Part shown: piece by piece, positions 9,862 through 20,292 of the stretch
Numbering within the stretch: position 1 is the first letter of the stretch
Layout of the letters: each line of letters starts with the position of its first letter
Translations under genes and position numbers: made by a program
From: an uncultured Woeseiaceae bacterium
GTDB lineage: Bacteria; Pseudomonadota; Gammaproteobacteria; Steroidobacterales; Woeseiaceae
NCBI GenBank assembly: GCA_905182415.1
Contig: CAJJBK010000002.1
Location: 62,001-126,000 of the forward strand
Direction of reading: 5' to 3'
Length of the DNA: 64,000 bases
The notes under the pieces: model-generated
The model's input: the letters and a program-made list of their open reading frames with translations, nothing else
What the model was told of the DNA's origin: nothing
Databases searched by the model: none

Positions 9862-10010
9862 ATTAAAAAAATTTAATCTTAATTACCAAGATATGCTAAT
9901 TTCAGTATATATATCATTTATATTACATTGGTATTCATATACTATGAGATCAATAATACTGGAAAAATAGTAGCATTAAATTAATTAAAAATTCTTAGAT
10001 GGAGAACAAC

Positions 10011-12455
10011 ATGCCTGAAATCATTCTTGATTTATCTTGGTTACTGGCATTTATATTCTTAGCCTTATACACGACTTATCACAGAATCAATCTGCTGATT
10101 TCAACAGTTGTATTATCAATTCTAACATATAGTTATACTTATTTTGGAGATGGGAATCTTTTATGGAATTCCTTACTTTGGATTTTAGTTGGAATTTTAA
10201 TTGCGCTAAACATCGTTCCTTTAAGGCGCTCAAAAATAACTCGACCATTAATGAAAATATACCGAAAAATGGTCCCAAAAATGTCCATTACTGAGAAAGA
10301 AGCTTTAGAGGCAGGAAATGTTTGGTGGGACGGTGAATTATTCTCAGGTATGCCAAACTGGGAAGTTTTGATGTCCATGCCTCAGCCTAAGTTATCATCA
10401 GAAGAACAAGCTTTTTTAGATGGGCCATGTAATGAACTATGTATGATGCTTGATGATTGGGAGGTATCACATGAATTAGGAGATCTTCCAGAAAGAGTTT
10501 GGGATTACATAAAAACTCATAAATTCTTTGCCATGATCATACCAAAAGAATTCGGTGGACTTGAGTTTTCATCCTATGCGAATGCAATGGTAATTACTAA
10601 ATTAGCCAGTAGAAGTGCGGTTGCATCCTCAACAGTAGGTGTCCCTAATTCACTTGGACCAGCAGAATTACTGTTGCATTATGGGACTGAGGAGCAAAAA
10701 AATCGTTATTTACCGGGGCTTGCATCTGGAGAAGAAATCCCTTGTTTTGCACTAACGTCAACCGAAGCTGGATCTGATGCTTCAGCTTTAATCGATTCTG
10801 GGATTATCTGTAAAGGAGAATGGAATGGTGAGGAAACGATTGGCATTCGCTTAAACTGGAGTAAAAGATATATAACACTCGCTCCAGTTGCAACTGTTCT
10901 TGGTTTAGCTTTCAAACTTTATGATCCGGAACATCTAATTGGTGAAAAGGACAAATATGGAATTACAGCAGCTCTAATTCCAACTAATACAGAAGGCGTC
11001 ACCGTTGGTCGTCGACATTACCCAATGAATGTTCCATTTCAAAACGGACCTACCAGTGGTAAAAATGTTTTTCTACCTCTTGATTGTATTATTGGTGGTC
11101 AAGAAATGGCTGGGAAAGGTTGGAAAATGTTAGTTGAGCTCTTGTCTGTGGGGCGAGCCATAACACTTCCATCAAGTGCGGCAGGTGGCGGTCAAGCAGC
11201 TGCCTATGCTTCTGGTGCTTACTCTCAGATCAGAAAACAATTCAATCTTCCAATATCTCAATTTGATGGTATCAAAGAAGCGCTGGCAAGAATCGCAGGT
11301 AATACATATATAATGAATGCAGCAATATCCATTACCTCAGGTGCCATTGATCAGGGCGAAAAACCCGCCGTACCCTCTGCTATCCTAAAATACCACTGTA
11401 CTGAATTAGGGCGCAAAGTCGCAAATGATGCCATGGATGTTCATGGCGGAAAAGCGGTCATGATGGGGCCAAAAAATTACATGGGCCGGAGTTTTATGGC
11501 CACACCAATTGCCATTACTGTTGAAGGCGCCAATATCCTAACTAGAAGTTTAATCATATTCGGACAAGGTGCAATAAGATGCCATCCGTTTGTCTTGCAA
11601 GAGTTGCAAGCAGCCGAGGAGGAAGACAGAAATTTAGGTCTGATAAATTTTGATAAAGCATTATTTTCTCATATTGGTTATGCCATCAGTAATTTATCAC
11701 GATCTGTTATTCTGGCAATAACAAATGCTCGATACAGTAAAAGCCCAGTCAATACCAACACAAAACGTTACTATCAGCATATCAATAGGTACAGTGCTGC
11801 TTTTGCTGTGGCCTCAGATTTTGCAATGCTTTCACTGGGGGGAGAACTAAAGAAAAAAGAATTACTCTCAGCAAGATTAGGGGATGTATTAAGTTCGATA
11901 TACCTTGCTTCAACCGTTCTTAAACACTATGAAAATCAAGGCTGCAAACCAGAAGATTTGCCATTAGTTCAATGGTCAGTAAGAACTTTAATGTATGAAG
12001 CACAAGAAAAACTGCATAGTTTTTTAAAGAACTTACCAAACAAAACACTCGCTTTTTTTCTGCGTTGCTATATTTTTCCAAGAGGACGTTCTTACTCGCC
12101 ACCGCCAGATGATTTAACCAAAAAAGTATCTCATATTATTACTTCAACGGGAGAAGCCAGGGAGCGTTTGAGTGAATACGCATACACCACAATTGAGCCC
12201 GGAAATCCTCTTGGATTACTTCAAGAAGCGCTTTTGTTATCTGAGCAAACAGCATTGATTGAGGCCAAAATTCATCAAGCAAAAAAAGATGGTTTAATAA
12301 AAAGTGATTATCTTGGCTACCAAATCGAGGAAGCAGAAACACAAAAATTACTTAGCTCTAAAGAAATAAATCAACTCAGAATACTACACCAAAAAGTGTC
12401 AGAATTATTATCGGTGGATGATTTTCATCCTAATGAAATCGGCCGTAAAACTTAA
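10011..12455 (+). CDS. fadE: Acyl-CoA dehydrogenase, FadE type
   Basis: First step of fatty-acid beta-oxidation, an FAD-dependent trans-2 desaturation of acyl-CoA. At 814 residues it has the long FadE architecture rather than the 380-residue soluble ACAD. Two N-terminal membrane segments (about residues 4-22 and 30-55) precede the acyl-CoA dehydrogenase domains. FadE-like blocks include MIIPKEFGGLEFS, ALTSTEAGSDA, FQNGPTSGKNVFLPLD, HGGKAVMMGPKN and AITVEGANILTRSLIIFGQG (the catalytic glutamate region), and a FadE-specific C-terminal domain follows. The ATG at 10011 is preferred over that at 9999 because GGAG at 10001-10004 is correctly spaced for it. No other beta-oxidation genes are adjacent. 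Confidence 0.95.
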   Translation: MPEIILDLSWLLAFIFLALYTTYHRINLLISTVVLSILTYSYTYFGDGNLLWNSLLWILVGILIALNIVPLRRSKITRPLMKIYRKMVPKMSITEKEALEAGNVWWDGELFSGMPNWEVLMSMPQPKLSSEEQAFLDGPCNELCMMLDDWEVSHELGDLPERVWDYIKTHKFFAMIIPKEFGGLEFSSYANAMVITKLASRSAVASSTVGVPNSLGPAELLLHYGTEEQKNRYLPGLASGEEIPCFALTSTEAGSDASALIDSGIICKGEWNGEETIGIRLNWSKRYITLAPVATVLGLAFKLYDPEHLIGEKDKYGITAALIPTNTEGVTVGRRHYPMNVPFQNGPTSGKNVFLPLDCIIGGQEMAGKGWKMLVELLSVGRAITLPSSAAGGGQAAAYASGAYSQIRKQFNLPISQFDGIKEALARIAGNTYIMNAAISITSGAIDQGEKPAVPSAILKYHCTELGRKVANDAMDVHGGKAVMMGPKNYMGRSFMATPIAITVEGANILTRSLIIFGQGAIRCHPFVLQELQAAEEEDRNLGLINFDKALFSHIGYAISNLSRSVILAITNARYSKSPVNTNTKRYYQHINRYSAAFAVASDFAMLSLGGELKKKELLSARLGDVLSSIYLASTVLKHYENQGCKPEDLPLVQWSVRTLMYEAQEKLHSFLKNLPNKTLAFFLRCYIFPRGRSYSPPPDDLTKKVSHIITSTGEARERLSEYAYTTIEPGNPLGLLQEALLLSEQTALIEAKIHQAKKDGLIKSDYLGYQIEEAETQKLLSSKEINQLRILHQKVSELLSVDDFHPNEIGRKT

Positions 12456-12992: not shown

Positions 12993-14474
12993 ATGAAGAA
13001 ACTTGATACACCTATTGGAATAAGTGGAATAGCAGCATATATCCCGCCCTATAGAGTATGGCTAAATGATTGGTGCGAATGGACCGGTAATCAGTGGCCA
13101 AAAATAAGGGAAGTTGTTGGTCGTAGTTTTAGATTAAGAGGTAGTCAACATAGCGTTTATACAATGGCAGCAACTGCAGTTATTAGGTTGATTGATCAAT
13201 ATGATATTGACCCAAGTCGTATAAAATTCCTTGCCCTAGGGACTGAGTCTAGTACTGATAACTCGGCTGGCGCTATAATTATTAAAGGCATGATTAATGA
13301 AGCGCTTATCTCCCAAAATAAACAACCTATATCACGCAGTTGTGAAGTGCCAGAGTTCAAACATGCTTGTTTAGGTGGCGTCTATGCTATGAAGGGAGCG
13401 GTTAGACATATAGCATTGGATGGCGCAGGTGATCAAGCAATCGTAGTATGTGCGGATATTGCAGAATATCCTCTTGGAAGTAGCGGTGAACCGACTCAAG
13501 GGGCTGGTGCAGTAGCAATGCTTGTTGAGGAAAATCCAAAACTCCTAGAAATCGACATCATGAATTCAGGGTCAGCATCTGATTATCGAATCCTAGACTT
13601 CAGAAAACCTATGATTCGTTTTTGCAAACAAAAAAGAAGACTCGATCAACAAGTTCAAGACTTTCCAGTATTTAATGGAAAATATTCAACAACATGCTAC
13701 TTAGATGAAACGTTGCATGCCCTGGATGACATGTATAGAAAAAGAAAATTAAATCCAATCAAGTATCTTCGCTCCCTTAAAACTGTATTTATGCATCGGC
13801 CTTATAGAAAAATGCCAGAAACTGGGCTGGCTATCGCTTATCTCTTTGCACTTTCGACGGGTAATTCTGATGATCGAGCTGAACTCACATCATATTGCTA
13901 TGAGGCAGGAATAGATCCCGTTAATGCTATTAATGAAATGCAAGAATATTCGCCAGATATCAAAAATCTGGCTAATCCAACGGACCTTAATAATGAGGCC
14001 TACCCGATGACAATGGCCATATTACGAATATTTAGAGCCTCAAGACATTACCGCAGAGAAGTTTTAGATAAGATGGCATTAGGAAGTGATACGATGCTGG
14101 ATCTCGGTAATCTTTATACAGCTGCTTTACCAGCCTGGATAGCAGCTGGAATTGAACAAGCGCTCACAGAGAATATAGATATAACTGGTAGCGAGATACT
14201 CACTCTTGGTTACGGCAGTGGCGACGCTGCAGAAGTAATTCCTTTTAAAGTCTCTAAGGAATGGCAAGAAGCTGCAAAAAATATTCAATTTGCTAAAGCT
14301 ATGTCATTCGCAATAGATATTAATGAAGATCAATATATTAATCTTCATAATGGGAAATCTTCAGAAAAATTAAATTATAAGCCAAAGAATGAGTTTATTA
14401 TTGATGGCGTAGGTGAGTCAGCAGAAAAAAATTATCAGGATATAGGTATCGAATATCATCGATATGTAAAATAA
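12993..14474 (+). CDS. mvaS: Hydroxymethylglutaryl-CoA synthase
   Basis: Condenses acetyl-CoA with acetoacetyl-CoA to HMG-CoA, the entry of the mevalonate pathway. Thiolase-fold residues are visible: catalytic Cys126 in EFKHACLGGVYAMKGA, an upstream glutamate in ALGTESSTDNSAG (Glu85), the histidine in VFMHRPYRKMP (about 268), and the C-terminal LGNLYTAALPAWIAAGIEQA and LGYGSGDAAEVIPF blocks. At 493 residues it is about 100 longer than Gram-positive MvaS (about 385-390), with an extended middle and a polar C-terminal tail. It lies on the plus strand, converging on the minus-strand run that holds the other mevalonate genes. Confidence 0.88.
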   Translation: MKKLDTPIGISGIAAYIPPYRVWLNDWCEWTGNQWPKIREVVGRSFRLRGSQHSVYTMAATAVIRLIDQYDIDPSRIKFLALGTESSTDNSAGAIIIKGMINEALISQNKQPISRSCEVPEFKHACLGGVYAMKGAVRHIALDGAGDQAIVVCADIAEYPLGSSGEPTQGAGAVAMLVEENPKLLEIDIMNSGSASDYRILDFRKPMIRFCKQKRRLDQQVQDFPVFNGKYSTTCYLDETLHALDDMYRKRKLNPIKYLRSLKTVFMHRPYRKMPETGLAIAYLFALSTGNSDDRAELTSYCYEAGIDPVNAINEMQEYSPDIKNLANPTDLNNEAYPMTMAILRIFRASRHYRREVLDKMALGSDTMLDLGNLYTAALPAWIAAGIEQALTENIDITGSEILTLGYGSGDAAEVIPFKVSKEWQEAAKNIQFAKAMSFAIDINEDQYINLHNGKSSEKLNYKPKNEFIIDGVGESAEKNYQDIGIEYHRYVK

Positions 14475-14504
14475 CTAAAGAAGTTTTATGAAATTTTCTT
14501 TAGT
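14474..14504. terminator. Candidate bidirectional terminator between mvaS and idi
   Basis: ACTAAAGAA (14474-14482) pairs perfectly with TTCTTTAGT (14496-14504) around a 13-base loop. The element starts at the mvaS stop and covers the 3' end of idi on the other strand. A 9-bp stem between convergent genes fits a shared terminator, but G+C is low and the T-tracts are weak. Confidence 0.4.
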
Positions 14505-15055
14505 AATCTACTGTGGTCTGAATTAATTCGCTCCCATTCCATAATGAACCATGGAGTACAAACATCTTCTTTCTTTAATAATATTGATATATCTTTTGAA
14601 TTTATAAATTTAAAGTCCGCAATTTCATTCGGATTAATCTCTACCTGTTGATCTATTTTGCCAATAAACACATGACATAGCTCGTTTTCAGAACCGATAT
14701 CCTTATATTTGGCTGTATACGAAAATTTATAAATATATTCTATATCAAAAGCGCTAATACCCAGCTCATCATGCAATCTTCTGCTCACAGCTTCATTTAT
14801 ATTTTCACCATCTCGTGGATGACTGCAACAACTATTCGACCAAAATAAAGGCCATAACTTTTTTGAGGCACTTCGTTGCTGTATAAGAAGTTCTCCTTTT
14901 ACATTGAATAAAAATACTGAAAAAGCACGATGTAATCTTCCATTATCTCGATGACAATCAATTTTACTCATCGTACCGATTTCGTTATCGAATGAATCAA
15001 CAAGTATTAATTTCTCATTATCAAAGGAGACTATATTATTATCTAACTTATTCAT
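14486..15055 (-). CDS. idi: Isopentenyl-diphosphate delta-isomerase, type I (Nudix)
   Basis: Interconverts IPP and DMAPP, needed in mevalonate-dependent cells because the route yields only IPP. The 189-residue length fits type I. The catalytic cysteine lies in NSCCSHPRDGE (about 74-84) and the catalytic glutamate in GSENELCHVF (about 127), with HRAFSVFLFN and the degenerate Nudix box EAVSRRLHDELGI. It is the last gene of the minus-strand mevalonate operon, 12 bases after the HMGR-mevalonate kinase gene. Confidence 0.93.
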   Translation of the reverse strand: MNKLDNNIVSFDNEKLILVDSFDNEIGTMSKIDCHRDNGRLHRAFSVFLFNVKGELLIQQRSASKKLWPLFWSNSCCSHPRDGENINEAVSRRLHDELGISAFDIEYIYKFSYTAKYKDIGSENELCHVFIGKIDQQVEINPNEIADFKFINSKDISILLKKEDVCTPWFIMEWERINSDHSRLLKKIS

Positions 15056-15067
15056 TTATTAACGCCA

Positions 15068-17305
15068 TCAAGTTGAATGTATTGGAATGATTTTATAACC
15101 AGCTAATTCAAAAGTCTTTGCTATTTCTTCTTCTTTTCCTGGGCAGAGTATAATTATTGATCCTCCACCACCGGAACCAGTGATCTTTGCTCCAAGCGCA
15201 CCCTCTGTTCTAGCTAGATTTACCATTTTCTCAAGTTCAGAATTTGATACACCGATAGCATTAAGCAGTCCGTGTGCTATATTCATTAATATTCCAAGCT
15301 GCTCAAAATTACGATCTTTTATCGCAGTTAATCCTTTCTTTGACAACTTTCCAATCTGCATAAATATGTCCGTATAGATGATTTTATTTTTCTTATAGCG
15401 TGAATAAACTTCATTTACCACATCAATCGTTTTAGATGATTTTTTGCTTACTGCAATAATTATTGGGAGTGATTTGATATCATTTAAATCAATATTCTTA
15501 ATGCCCTTCTTTTTACTATAGATGATCGGTCGGGCATAAGAGGCAACCGTATTATCAATGCCAGATGGATTTCCATGAGACAGTTTTTCGCACTCATAAG
15601 CAATATCATTAATTTCCTTGTCCGTTGAGGTTAGATTAAATAAATCAACTAACCCTCTTGTTATTGCTACAGCATATGACGCTGAGGCTCCTAATCCCAT
15701 GGATAGAGGTATTCGAGAAACGATATTGATCCTATATCTCACTCGATCTAAATTTAATAAAAAGCATATCTTTTCCACCATCAGAACCAAATTAATATAT
15801 TCATTAGGGCTTGAATCAGAAAAACTTTCAAAATTGCCATTAATGATAAATTGGCAATCTTCTTCTATTTCCTGCAGTTCAACTCGGACAGCCCTCTCTA
15901 TAGGAATAGCTATAGCATACTCATCATAAACAACGGCATGCTCTCCAAATAATATAATTTTTCCAGCAGCAATGCCGAGCCCTATTGGCTTTAAATCATC
16001 TTGATTATCTATAATCTTACTTTCCTTTAGTTTTATCGAATCAAGTATTTCTTGGGCCTTCCATGCTTTAATTTCGTCACTTAAAATTAAATCGGTCACA
16101 ACTTTGGAAAAATATTTCTCAGGTACATCAATACTCATCGCAACACTTTTTGCATGTAATTTCATATGTCCTTTTTGTATTCCATGAGTGGTCAATGCTC
16201 TCAATGCAGCTAAATTTTGAGCGAGTCCCACGGAACCCATAATTATTGCCAACTCGTTTGAAGTGCTAGCAGCTGTTATTTTTAACCCTAATTGGGCCGC
16301 TGGATTTGCCTGCAAAGAACCGCCAACAATACCAACTTTAATTGGTATTTTTAAATTACCAGCCAAATTACCATCAGCATCAACAAACCACTCAGTTAAC
16401 GATCTATATCTACCATCATCAGAAGCATAGGCGTGAGCGGCTGCTTCAATTGAACGCCAATCATTTCCTGTGGCAATTGCAACCGCATCAATTCCATTCA
16501 TAATTCCCTTGTTATGTGTTGCTGCACGATATGGATCAGAATCAGCAAACTCTGTCGCATTTACAATACCATCACGAACCTGCAAGCCATCGTATTCATC
16601 TTTGGTCAAATATCGGGGAGGTATTTTTACTTTTACATTAACCAGAGATCGATCGGTCAAATTAGATAATATTTTCAAACCAATTTTACAGCCAGTTAAT
16701 TTTATCAAATCATTTGCCAAATATTCACAAATCGTATTTACTAGATTAGCTCCCATAGCATCTTTGGTATCTACCAAGAGATGCAATACAACTATCTGTT
16801 TACTTTTTTGTTTTACTATACGAATCTCAATATCTTTAACGCCACCGCCTCTTTTGATTAGATTCGGTTGTGATGAATTTGCTGAACGCATTAATATTTT
16901 TTTATTCTGCTCAAGAATATCAACAATATTTTCTATATTTTTAACCTCAAGAATTTGAATTTGCCCGATCAACAAAGATTCATCCATTGAGGCAAAAAAC
17001 CCACCTGACATTCTAATGATTTTAGCAGCACTGCTGACACCAGCAACTATGGAAGGTTCCTCCACCACCATTGGCACTAAATAATCTTGGTTATTGATAA
17101 GAAAATTAGTGGCAATTGAAAGAGGTAAACCAAAAACACCTATAACATTTTCACTCATATTATCAGCGGTATGAGCTTGGAGTACTTGGTTTTCTGACTT
17201 GAGTAGCTGAGATTCCTCAAGAGTCAAAACATCAAGATTAGATAATGCCTCAATTCTTTCGGTAACTGTCATTTTATAGAAGCCAGCAATATCTGAATCA
17301 GTCAT
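15068..17305 (-). CDS. Fused HMG-CoA reductase (class II) - mevalonate kinase
   Basis: One 745-residue frame holds two consecutive mevalonate-pathway enzymes. Residues about 1-425 are a class II HMG-CoA reductase: Glu82 in VVEEPS, Lys266 in ATHNKGIMNGID, Asp282 in ATGNDW and His380 in KGHMKLHAKS correspond one-for-one to the catalytic set of the Pseudomonas mevalonii enzyme. Residues about 445-745 are a GHMP-family mevalonate kinase: AAGKIILFGEHAVVYD (446-461), the ATP loop PLSMGLGASAS (533-543), Asp584 in HGNPSGIDNTVASY, and a C-terminal KITGSGGGGS. The linker is only about 20 residues. The ATG at 17305 follows GAGG by 7 bases and lies just after the phosphomevalonate kinase stop; an upstream in-frame TTG (17311) has no support. 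No stop or frame break lies between the domains. Confidence 0.93.
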   Translation of the reverse strand: MTDSDIAGFYKMTVTERIEALSNLDVLTLEESQLLKSENQVLQAHTADNMSENVIGVFGLPLSIATNFLINNQDYLVPMVVEEPSIVAGVSSAAKIIRMSGGFFASMDESLLIGQIQILEVKNIENIVDILEQNKKILMRSANSSQPNLIKRGGGVKDIEIRIVKQKSKQIVVLHLLVDTKDAMGANLVNTICEYLANDLIKLTGCKIGLKILSNLTDRSLVNVKVKIPPRYLTKDEYDGLQVRDGIVNATEFADSDPYRAATHNKGIMNGIDAVAIATGNDWRSIEAAAHAYASDDGRYRSLTEWFVDADGNLAGNLKIPIKVGIVGGSLQANPAAQLGLKITAASTSNELAIIMGSVGLAQNLAALRALTTHGIQKGHMKLHAKSVAMSIDVPEKYFSKVVTDLILSDEIKAWKAQEILDSIKLKESKIIDNQDDLKPIGLGIAAGKIILFGEHAVVYDEYAIAIPIERAVRVELQEIEEDCQFIINGNFESFSDSSPNEYINLVLMVEKICFLLNLDRVRYRINIVSRIPLSMGLGASASYAVAITRGLVDLFNLTSTDKEINDIAYECEKLSHGNPSGIDNTVASYARPIIYSKKKGIKNIDLNDIKSLPIIIAVSKKSSKTIDVVNEVYSRYKKNKIIYTDIFMQIGKLSKKGLTAIKDRNFEQLGILMNIAHGLLNAIGVSNSELEKMVNLARTEGALGAKITGSGGGGSIIILCPGKEEEIAKTFELAGYKIIPIHST

Positions 17306-17307
17306 TA

Positions 17308-18306
17308 TCAAACCTCACGATTGAAACCTGTTTTATCCAACTCTAAGTGCAATGATACAAAACCATTTTGGTTGGCTGATTCTTCAAATTCATCCAGTAA
17401 CCTATCGGATGAAGTAATACAAATACCAATATCTCCCCCAGCACCACAAGGTTTATAAACTAAATTACTCTCTTTCTTTGCCAAATCCAACAATATATTA
17501 TGCTTGTTCCCAAAGATATTTAAATCATATTCAATGCTGAATTCCATCAAAGCATCGGTATATTCATCGAGATAGCTGATAAAGAGTTTATTAGTATTAC
17601 ACTCCCAAATTGAAGCAAATTTTATAGCCATTCTATTTAAATCTGAAAAACTTTTTTTTGAGAATGTTTTTATTTTAGATAATTGCTTCGGCGTACTAAC
17701 TGGCATGCCACTCCAAAAAATTTTAAATTTTAAATCTTCTGGCAACTCCAAAGTAGTTGTTCTGACTTTTTCCATACGAAAGTATTTAATAATTCCACCT
17801 TCTATTGAAGTAGCAATATCCACGCCACTGCCAATGGCACCTTGAAATTCTCGATGCGTTTTTAATGCCAATTCTTTTACTCCAATTGGTAATTTAAATG
17901 TCTCGATAAAAACACCAGCCATTGCGACAGTGAGTGCTGCACTAGAACCAATACCATATTTAAGCCCAGTAGCCTCATCGTAAAAACCACTGGTATCTAA
18001 AACGAATTTATAAAAAGCAGTAGGAATAATATTTATTTGTCGCCATAAACATTCAAAAAATAACCTAATAGGATCATTTGATTCAACGTCCAGCCATTCT
18101 ATTATTCCATAGTCATTTACGGTAAATACTAATTCTCTGTCTTTAAAGCCAATAGTTTTTAAAACATGTATGTTCTTGCTATGCACACTGATAGAAGCTT
18201 TTGCTCGCTTATTGATAGCCATTGAAATTGCAGGAGCTTCTGCTAGTACTGCAAATTCGCCAGCAATGATAATTTTACCTGGTGCACTTACCTCGATTTT
18301 TTTCAT
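17308..18306 (-). CDS. Phosphomevalonate kinase (GHMP family)
   Basis: Phosphorylates mevalonate-5-phosphate to the diphosphate. The 332-residue GHMP kinase has motif 1 APGKIIIAGEFAVLAEAPAI (about 8-27), the ATP loop KYGIGSSAALTVAMAG (about 116-131), GSGVDIATSIEGGIIKY (about 157-173) and a C-terminal glycine motif KPCGAGGDIGICI (about 291-303). These features and its place between mevalonate kinase and diphosphomevalonate decarboxylase identify it as phosphomevalonate kinase rather than another GHMP enzyme. It overlaps the upstream decarboxylase gene by 4 bases (ATGA) and ends 2 bases before the fusion gene's ATG, so all are translationally linked. Confidence 0.88.
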   Translation of the reverse strand: MKKIEVSAPGKIIIAGEFAVLAEAPAISMAINKRAKASISVHSKNIHVLKTIGFKDRELVFTVNDYGIIEWLDVESNDPIRLFFECLWRQINIIPTAFYKFVLDTSGFYDEATGLKYGIGSSAALTVAMAGVFIETFKLPIGVKELALKTHREFQGAIGSGVDIATSIEGGIIKYFRMEKVRTTTLELPEDLKFKIFWSGMPVSTPKQLSKIKTFSKKSFSDLNRMAIKFASIWECNTNKLFISYLDEYTDALMEFSIEYDLNIFGNKHNILLDLAKKESNLVYKPCGAGGDIGICITSSDRLLDEFEESANQNGFVSLHLELDKTGFNREV

Positions 18307-19265
18307 AAATCGGCACTTGAAGTAGGAGCTTCACCTAAACCTGATTTCATGATAGAAACCACACCATCTATTTCTGTTAATCTTTTTATGATCCTTGTTT
18401 CGTTTTCAGGAAGACACACCGCTTTTATTTGTGGGCCAGCATCCATCGTAAAAAATACAGGCTCGCCAATTTGCTGTAAATCACGAATGGCGTGCATACA
18501 ATTAAGCGTCGCAGCGTTCCAATAGACAACAGATGGTTTAGTGGTCCACATAACCGAATGCATTTTCAAGCAATTGTGTTCGGAAACTGCTGCCAATTTA
18601 TCAAAATCTTTATTTTTTACAGCTAATCTTGCTTCCTTCATATCTGGTGATTGATTTTTAATCCATGCTGAATAAAAAGGAGAAGAACGAGAACTTAAAT
18701 TCATTGCCTGAGATGAAGAAATATTTTTTTTATTTTTATCGGTAATAGCGATCACGACACTTAATGGCCATCGTGTCGCATTTGATAACTGCTTTATCCT
18801 AATAGTATTCGATATATTATTAAGTTCCACGATACCACCCAATATAGACCTTGCAGCTGATCCTGAAATAGTACCTGCTTGAGCAGCGAGTAACTGCGTG
18901 TTTGACTCTTTCTTCATGGCTGCATTTGCAGCAACAACCAATGCAGAAAATGAAGAGGAGGAAGATGCCAGTCCAGCTGAAATTGGAAAATTACATTCAC
19001 TGATAATCTTAGCAAACTTTCGATTTTTACCTATAACGAGATCTAAGCATTGGCTAACACGTAATAAATTAGGCTCATCAATAACGCCATTTATAATTAA
19101 TTCATCTCGATCAAGATTAAGGGATAAATCAATCTTCATCTTTGTCCACAAACCACCCAATGTAAGTGACAGAGAGTCTACAGCAGGTAAGTTTTTTGTA
19201 GTATCTCTCTTACCCCAATATTTAATCAATGCAATATTAGGGTGCGATCGTGCCATTGCTTGCAT
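18303..19265 (-). CDS. mvaD: Diphosphomevalonate decarboxylase
   Basis: ATP-dependent decarboxylation of mevalonate diphosphate to IPP. The family signature IALIKYWGKRDTTKNLPAVDSLSLTL lies at about residues 11-36. The ATP-binding loop is SAGLASSSSSFSALVVAA (about 93-110), and the GSAARSILGGIVEL block (about 130) is typical. The Asp near FTMDAGPQIKAV (about 273) is the conserved catalytic region. Both expected ends are present at about 320 residues. I chose the ATG at 19265, preceded by GGA at a good distance; an in-frame TTG 12 bases upstream is a less likely start. It is the first gene of the minus-strand mevalonate operon and divergent from ispA. Confidence 0.93.
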   Translation of the reverse strand: MQAMARSHPNIALIKYWGKRDTTKNLPAVDSLSLTLGGLWTKMKIDLSLNLDRDELIINGVIDEPNLLRVSQCLDLVIGKNRKFAKIISECNFPISAGLASSSSSFSALVVAANAAMKKESNTQLLAAQAGTISGSAARSILGGIVELNNISNTIRIKQLSNATRWPLSVVIAITDKNKKNISSSQAMNLSSRSSPFYSAWIKNQSPDMKEARLAVKNKDFDKLAAVSEHNCLKMHSVMWTTKPSVVYWNAATLNCMHAIRDLQQIGEPVFFTMDAGPQIKAVCLPENETRIIKRLTEIDGVVSIMKSGLGEAPTSSADL

Positions 19266-19404
19266 ATTGCTATCCAATATTAAAAATATTTAACTGAAAT
19301 TAAATTATACGTGTATTTTAATGAACTATTTGTGTCATTTTATATCGATATTGTGTTTATATATCTTCTCAATTACATTATCACACCTTACTCAGAGACT
19401 TAAT

Positions 19405-20292
19405 ATGTCAATGAATACGCCCAACGAAATTAAAAACTACCAAATACGCATTAACTCACTGTTAGATAAAGCTGTCCCTCCGTCTAACAATAACTCCAAC
19501 CTAAATGATGCAATGCGTTATGCTGTCATAAGTGGTGGTAAGCGTATTCGGCCGCTTCTGATCTATAGTTCTGGATTATGTTTAGGTGCCCAAGTAAATA
19601 AACTTGATGCACCTGCCGTCTCAATTGAACTCTTGCATGCATTTTCATTGGTGCATGACGACCTTCCATCAATGGATAATGATGATTTAAGAAGAGGTTT
19701 ACCCACCACACATAAAAAATTCTCAGAAGCGACAGCCATTCTCGCTGCTGATGCTCTACAAACACTTTCATTTGAATTAATAGCTAACTCTGGATCTTTG
19801 AGTGATTATGAAAAAACTCAGTTAGTTTCATTAATCGCAAAAGCATGTGGATCATCGGGTATGACAGGAGGGCAATCAATTGATTTAGCGTCTGAAGGAA
19901 AAACTCTCACTAAATCAGAACTACATGAAATGTACTCTATGAAAACCGGGGCATTAATTCATGCTTCCATCATGGCGCCATTTTGTATAATCGACGAGTC
20001 TAGTCAGGATATCCGGGCGATGATGAGTGAGTTTGCCTGGATTTTAGGGCTTGCATTCCAAATTCGTGATGATTTACTAGATATAGAAGAGTCATCCGAG
20101 GTAATAGGAAAAACAGCGAACTCAGATATAAAAAATAACAAAGCTACGTGGCCTGCGATCTTCGGCATTCAAGAATCTCACAACTACTGTGATGAATTAT
20201 TAAAAAAATGTATAAAACATCTAGAGTTTTTTAATCATAAAGCCGATCCACTTCGATGGCTCACCAATTACCTAATAAACAGAAAATACTAA
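19405..20292 (+). CDS. ispA: Farnesyl diphosphate synthase (short-chain polyprenyl synthase)
   Basis: Condenses IPP with DMAPP and geranyl-PP to farnesyl-PP, the precursor of undecaprenyl-PP, quinone side chains and other isoprenoids. Both aspartate-rich motifs are present: DDLPSMDNDD (about 84-93, with the two-residue insertion typical of bacterial FPPS) and DDLLD (about 223-227). GGKRIRPLL, GGQSIDL and KTGALI are also seen. A start at 19405 gives 295 residues, matching IspA (299) and leaving the usual spacer before GGKR. The in-frame ATG at 19321 would add an unusual hydrophobic 28-residue extension, so it is not preferred. It is divergent from the mevalonate operon. Confidence 0.92.
   Translation: MSMNTPNEIKNYQIRINSLLDKAVPPSNNNSNLNDAMRYAVISGGKRIRPLLIYSSGLCLGAQVNKLDAPAVSIELLHAFSLVHDDLPSMDNDDLRRGLPTTHKKFSEATAILAADALQTLSFELIANSGSLSDYEKTQLVSLIAKACGSSGMTGGQSIDLASEGKTLTKSELHEMYSMKTGALIHASIMAPFCIIDESSQDIRAMMSEFAWILGLAFQIRDDLLDIEESSEVIGKTANSDIKNNKATWPAIFGIQESHNYCDELLKKCIKHLEFFNHKADPLRWLTNYLINRKY

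Follow-up and report, generated by a model that had tools for sequence, protein, structure and literature searches.

The natural fusions of isoprenoid-precursor enzymes that most resemble the one described here are MvaE and IspDF. MvaE of Enterococcus faecalis is likewise a natural bifunctional enzyme that acts in the mevalonate pathway and contains a class II HMG-CoA reductase (HMGR) domain, but it carries acetoacetyl-CoA thiolase on the N-terminus of HMGR, so that its two steps are non-consecutive, with HMG-CoA synthase acting between them. IspDF also joins two enzymes of isoprenoid-precursor synthesis, but these are other enzymes, catalyzing non-consecutive steps of another route, the MEP pathway (PMC13001223). 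In the window, by which we mean the whole stretch of 64,000 nucleotides from an uncultured Woeseiaceae bacterium that was analyzed, HMGR is instead followed in the same chain by the next enzyme of the pathway, mevalonate kinase (MVK). The reductase half shares its fold and the catalytic Glu/Lys/Asp/His, at about 43-46% identity, with the class II enzyme of Pseudomonas mevalonii (1qax), which is, in contrast, stand-alone and catabolic and has an NADH-type cofactor helix with Asp146 and Leu148, positions occupied in the fused copies by His/Gln and, mostly, by Arg/Lys/Asn. The kinase half has the GHMP fold, the motifs and the catalytic Lys/Asp of stand-alone bacterial and archaeal mevalonate kinases (TIGR00549; 8teb, 2x7i, 1kkh), but those are unfused, and the kinase tree sets the fused copies apart as one clade. 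In Bacillaceae (Virgibacillus, Oceanobacillus), Myxococcaceae and a Lokiarchaeote, hmgR and mvk stand in the same order in the mva cluster, but as two reading frames. A full-text search, mainly of the open literature, turned up MvaE and IspDF and no HMGR-MVK fusion; an earlier reading of the window from sequence alone, which knew of no characterized example, agrees with this outcome, and the fusion is probably undescribed. We therefore appear to be dealing with an uncharacterized natural fusion of two consecutive mevalonate enzymes around the rate-limiting step. The enzymes themselves are ordinary; what is new is that they are joined, apparently through a single event, and that the fusion has spread and has triple-fusion descendants.

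The fusion protein and its operon

The gene lies on the minus strand, a detail missing from the sequence-only reading, and its single frame encodes both enzymes in one 745-residue chain, as that reading had stated (Table 1); an alternative TTG start two codons upstream of the ATG would give 747 aa. On the 747-aa version, Pfam found HMG-CoA_red at 16-387 (E 6.5e-102; 341.7 bits against a cut-off of 27), GHMP_kinases_N at 524-592 and GHMP_kinases_C at 662-731. These were the only domains, and a thiolase domain N-terminal to HMGR was absent, which bears out the distinction from MvaE that had been drawn. Both curated NCBIfam cut-offs were passed, with 384.9 bits against 259.95 for TIGR00532 and 244.2 bits against 163.05 for TIGR00549 (mevalonate kinase), the latter profile being matched over positions 1-276 of 276. 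In an alignment with P. mevalonii HMGR (1qax), Lys267, Asp283 and His381 of that enzyme correspond to Lys266, Asp282 and His380 of the window protein, and the catalytic Lys, Asp and His are invariant across all 127 of the 127 HMGRs compared. The catalytic Glu, in contrast, had been placed at residue 82 and has to be corrected, because Glu83 of 1qax aligns with Glu83 of the window reductase, the second Glu of an EE pair. The GHMP kinase motifs are complete, as had been proposed, and are found at 448-460 (GK..LFGEHAVVY), 533-543 (PLSMGLGASAS) and 707-716 (KITGSGGGGS); K449, E455, S541, E573 and D584 do not change across 36 aligned fusions. A Foldseek search with the predicted structure returned class II HMGRs first (P. 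mevalonii HMGR, TMt 0.90) and then mevalonate kinases (TMt up to 0.84). As far as its sequence tells, the window protein is a genuine HMGR-MVK fusion with two full catalytic sets; its two enzyme activities, the kinetic benefit of the tether and the oligomeric state are inferences.

Table 1. Positions in the window of the HMGR-MVK gene, its parts and its neighbors
Feature	Position	Strand	Remarks
HMGR-MVK fusion gene, 745 aa	15068..17305	minus	ATG 17305, TGA 15068
Class II HMG-CoA reductase domain, residues 1-427	16025..17305	minus	includes C-terminal flap with catalytic His380
Linker, about residues 429-444	15974..16021	minus	predicted disordered, unconserved, without start codon
Mevalonate kinase domain (GHMP family), residues 445-745	15071..15973	minus	
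Phosphomevalonate kinase (PMK)	17308..18306	minus	divergent, scores under the curated cut-offs; its stop lies 2 nt ahead of the HMGR-MVK ATG
Diphosphomevalonate decarboxylase (MVD)	18303..19277	minus	TIGR01240 over cut-off; overlaps PMK start by 4 nt (ATGA)
Type 1 isopentenyl-diphosphate isomerase (IDI)	14486..15055	minus	
HMG-CoA synthase-like protein	12993..14474	plus	convergent with operon
Farnesyl diphosphate synthase	19321..20292	plus	divergent from operon

The operon has the order MVD-PMK-[HMGR-MVK]-IDI; MVD and PMK overlap by 4 nt, and the fusion gene is separated from PMK by 2 nt and from IDI by 12 nt. The same order is found in Calditrichota, Acidobacteriota and Planctomycetota, and MVD-PMK-[HMGR-MVK] in Cryobacterium. 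The window PMK reaches none of the curated NCBIfam cut-offs (TIGR01220, 77.9 versus 165.7 bits), and divergence of this kind could lead surveys to score the mevalonate pathway as incomplete, an effect of which Legionella is a reported case (PMC13001223). The HMG-CoA synthase-like protein reaches 168 bits against the curated prokaryotic synthase cut-off of 360, and its identity within the window's family is mostly about 70% or more; at the mva locus of this family, a gene for a FadE-like acyl-CoA dehydrogenase (9999-12455 in the window) is a constant neighbor of HMG-CoA synthase.

Linker, domain arrangement and possible role of the tether

The explanation that we consider likely is that of a bifunctional enzyme whose domains are flexibly tethered and catalyze two consecutive mevalonate steps; it would have arisen by a single fusion and be tied to the replacement of the MEP pathway. 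The N-terminal class II reductase would convert HMG-CoA into mevalonate, probably with NADPH, and the C-terminal GHMP kinase, held on a flexible linker at the end of the mobile flap of the reductase, would phosphorylate mevalonate with ATP. In what would be the simplest reading, the tether fixes the stoichiometry, most likely by securing 1:1 production, and raises the local concentration of the kinase; mevalonate, the diffusible product of a reversible reaction, might be trapped as the phosphate near its site of synthesis, and the tether would not form a built-in tunnel.

An AlphaFold2 model of the window protein, obtained with 36 natural fusions as input and as a monomer without ligands, showed both domains to be well folded (mean pLDDT 83.6), with pLDDT below 50 at residues 429-438 of the linker, and left the relative placement of the domains unfixed (pTM 0.58, flap present). 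The placement was again unfixed in the AlphaFold monomer of a flap-less relative (pTM 0.57), with the junction still predicted to be disordered. Column identity is about 20% in the linker, compared with 73% and 62% in the two domains, and the spacing between the LHAR helix and the GEH motif of the kinase varies from 19 to 118 residues among the fusions, without conservation of sequence. Because the linker is unconserved and this spacing so variable, fixed docking or a tunnel is unlikely as a general property of the fusions. The direct hand-over of mevalonate, which had been called plausible, thus found no positive support in a linker that is unconstrained in length and sequence and predicted to be disordered, and in domains whose placement is unfixed.

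One alternative is true substrate channeling, in which the HMGR and MVK sites would face each other in an oligomer and mevalonate would be passed on without equilibrating with the cell. The two steps are consecutive, one ancient fusion has been retained with no split gene found, and the kinase is joined to the mobile flap, which bears the catalytic His380 and shuts over the active site of the reductase, all of which would suit such a mechanism. Most of the flap past the LHAR helix is missing in some relatives (L005, L029, L196, L197 and the family genomes G096, G145, G204, G240 and G708), which keep the catalytic His and in which the kinase starts only 19-23 residues past the helix, and a specific interface in an oligomer would stay compatible with the ligand-free monomer models. 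The wide and unconserved range of spacings, together with the unfixed placement predicted both with and without the flap, nevertheless makes channeling unlikely in our view.

Some relatives have a third enzyme in the same frame, as read from draft assemblies. A genome of the same family (G084) contains a 998-aa HMGR-MVK-IDI frame (L146, 6217-9210), in which TIGR00532, TIGR00549 and TIGR02150 are all above their cut-offs and beside which no separate IDI was found at the locus. Two genomes that belong to one genus of the same order (G022, L159 5665-9063; G008, L155 5561-9799) have PMK-HMGR-MVK as a single frame, uninterrupted by a stop between PMK and HMGR; the domains of L159 are PMK at 5-376, HMGR at 384-810 and MVK at 835-1130. 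HMGR-MVK could be conceived as the center of an expanding assembly line for mevalonate with true channeling, to which a third enzyme was added at one end or the other, an improbable scheme, as we see it; if it were true, the loss of the flap in the subgroup would let the kinase domain serve as a lid over the reductase active site. The very long frames of the GC-rich loci L153, L154, L156, L157 and L150 were also considered as giant fusions and rejected, as they hold no extra domain. The natural sequences, whose linkers range from very short to more than 60 residues and which include two triple-fusion variants, are suited to tests of how tethering or channeling affects flux, a matter of relevance to the engineering of terpenoid production.

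Another alternative to the flexibly tethered enzyme is a polyprotein that is cleaved, or a gene that is internally initiated, in vivo to give two ordinary enzymes, so that the fusion would only set the stoichiometry of synthesis. A disordered linker, as predicted here, would be accessible to proteases, but no conserved cleavage motif was seen in the linker among the fusions, and no in-frame ATG, GTG or TTG was found between codons 404 and 474 of the window gene, which leaves no obvious internal start for a free kinase. Given also that adjacent unfused genes provide co-expression anyway, we consider this scheme very unlikely.

Cofactor and direction of the reductase

By a rule that PMC13370337 attributes to Miller and Kung, Dx(V/L)xxxL in the cofactor helix indicates NADH and (H/Y)xSxxxR indicates NADPH. 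The corresponding motif is DQLLNSL in P. mevalonii HMGR, YPSIVKR in the NADPH enzyme of S. pneumoniae and QPNLIKR in the window reductase, which lacks the Dx(V/L)xxxL helix of the "degradative" subtype and whose Q and N deviate from the strict NADPH motif. HPRMVAR, HPNMVAR and HPKMVAR are the commonest motifs of the fused copies. An NADPH-type or NADPH-like motif is present in 71 of the 73 fused HMGRs, and the NADH motif in none of the 73, versus 18 of 54 stand-alone copies. The fused reductases, including the window copy, presumably use NADPH and are probably biosynthetic despite the "degradative" label of TIGR00532. That family name is what would favor a catabolic reductase, using NADH for mevalonate degradation with the kinase competing against it; such a role is hardly credible in view of the NADPH-like motif of the fused copies, the presence of PMK, MVD and IDI in the operon, the absence of the MEP pathway from the genome and the occurrence of stand-alone Asp-type HMGRs in genomes that keep the MEP pathway.

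Distribution and relation to the MEP pathway

A scan in which each species was represented by a single genome gave 80 loci, the frames of which were then read for both domains. The one-frame fusion was seen in genomes labeled Woeseiaceae, Rhodanobacteraceae (Dyella), Salinisphaera, several Pseudomonadales and other Gammaproteobacteria and, outside Pseudomonadota, in Calditrichota, Acidobacteriota, a Planctomycetota bin and Actinomycetota (Cryobacterium isolates and a Nakamurella bin). After the addition of genomes of the window's order, the set comprised 73 non-redundant fusions, that is, the window and 72 other loci. Matches were found in 103 of 107 genomes of the window's family, and among the matches listed the great majority span both domains in one frame; in an even sample, only G629 among 398 other Pseudomonadota carries the fusion. 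Thus, some lineages carry the fusion frequently, but it is rare on the whole. None of the plasmid records matches the fusion protein over 80% of its length. Copies in other genomes rule out that the fusion is unique to the window's genome. It is shared by further genomes of the genus, by a large majority of the family and by isolates from other groups, those of Dyella and Cryobacterium among them, which makes a sequencing or assembly artifact virtually inconceivable. A stop or frameshift hidden near residues 425-445, which had been named as a possible flaw, is excluded by dozens of independent genomes that read through the same junction. Secondary splitting was considered for G095, G019, G206 and G197 and rejected, since their short frames are due to contig ends; no split descendants of the fused gene were seen among the loci checked.

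IspG and IspH were both searched for in the window's genome and neither was found, so the mva locus is the only route found there to isoprenoid precursors. IspG was likewise absent from all 18 of the 18 named fused genomes in which it was searched for, and the fusion therefore marks bacteria that apparently depend on the mevalonate pathway alone. Hand tabulation of the 246 genomes of the window's order gave 84 with IspG, 167 with HMGR and 11 with both, and 156 of the 162 IspG-negative genomes have HMGR. In the 11 genomes with both, all HMGRs among the frames listed are stand-alone (391-578 aa), and no fused gene is present among the matches listed for the 84 IspG-positive genomes. The fusion appears to belong to a mevalonate pathway that replaced the MEP pathway, the route usual in bacteria, and it might serve as a one-gene marker of bacteria that made this exchange. 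The mevalonate pathway is already known in related Gammaproteobacteria such as Wenzhouxiangella, in a report whose excerpt does not mention the fusion (PMC7691419). IspG was not found in the fusion-bearing 4.9 Mb genome of Dyella monticola (G645, L003), which suggests a mevalonate-only member of Rhodanobacteraceae.

Origin and spread of the fusion

Quick trees, with support by SH-aLRT only, were built for both domains. All fused copies form one clade in the HMGR tree (SH-aLRT 100) and lie on one side of one branch in the MVK tree (support 91), and the distances of the two domains are correlated (Mantel r 0.90, with 0 of 2000 permutations as high). The single fused clade in both trees and the correlated distances, which show the domains to have co-evolved, point to one fusion event, apparently followed by spread, usually within the operon. 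Multiple independent fusions are not needed to explain the trees: L040 and L044, labeled as separate in the HMGR tree, run into contig ends past the start of the kinase domain and are fusions cut short. In both trees, Cryobacterium copies are nested with those of Salinisphaera, a placement suggestive of horizontal transfer.

HMGR and MVK are encoded in this order by adjacent, unfused genes in Bacillaceae, a Myxococcaceae bin and a Lokiarchaeote, an arrangement that is plausible as the ancestral state. The domain order does match the reaction order, as the sequence-only reading had pointed out, but it is already the gene order of these unfused mva clusters and therefore need not reflect selection for the order of reactions. 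The flexibly tethered enzyme probably came into existence by a single fusion, plausibly of adjacent hmgR and mvk genes of an operon, and was passed on both by vertical descent and by horizontal transfer with the operon, accompanying the replacement of the MEP route. In five Bacillaceae loci (L043, L045, L048, L050 and L051), the adjacent hmgR and mvk frames, read from stop to stop, overlap by about 25-67 nt; these frames are unfused and are close to an arrangement from which a fusion could arise.
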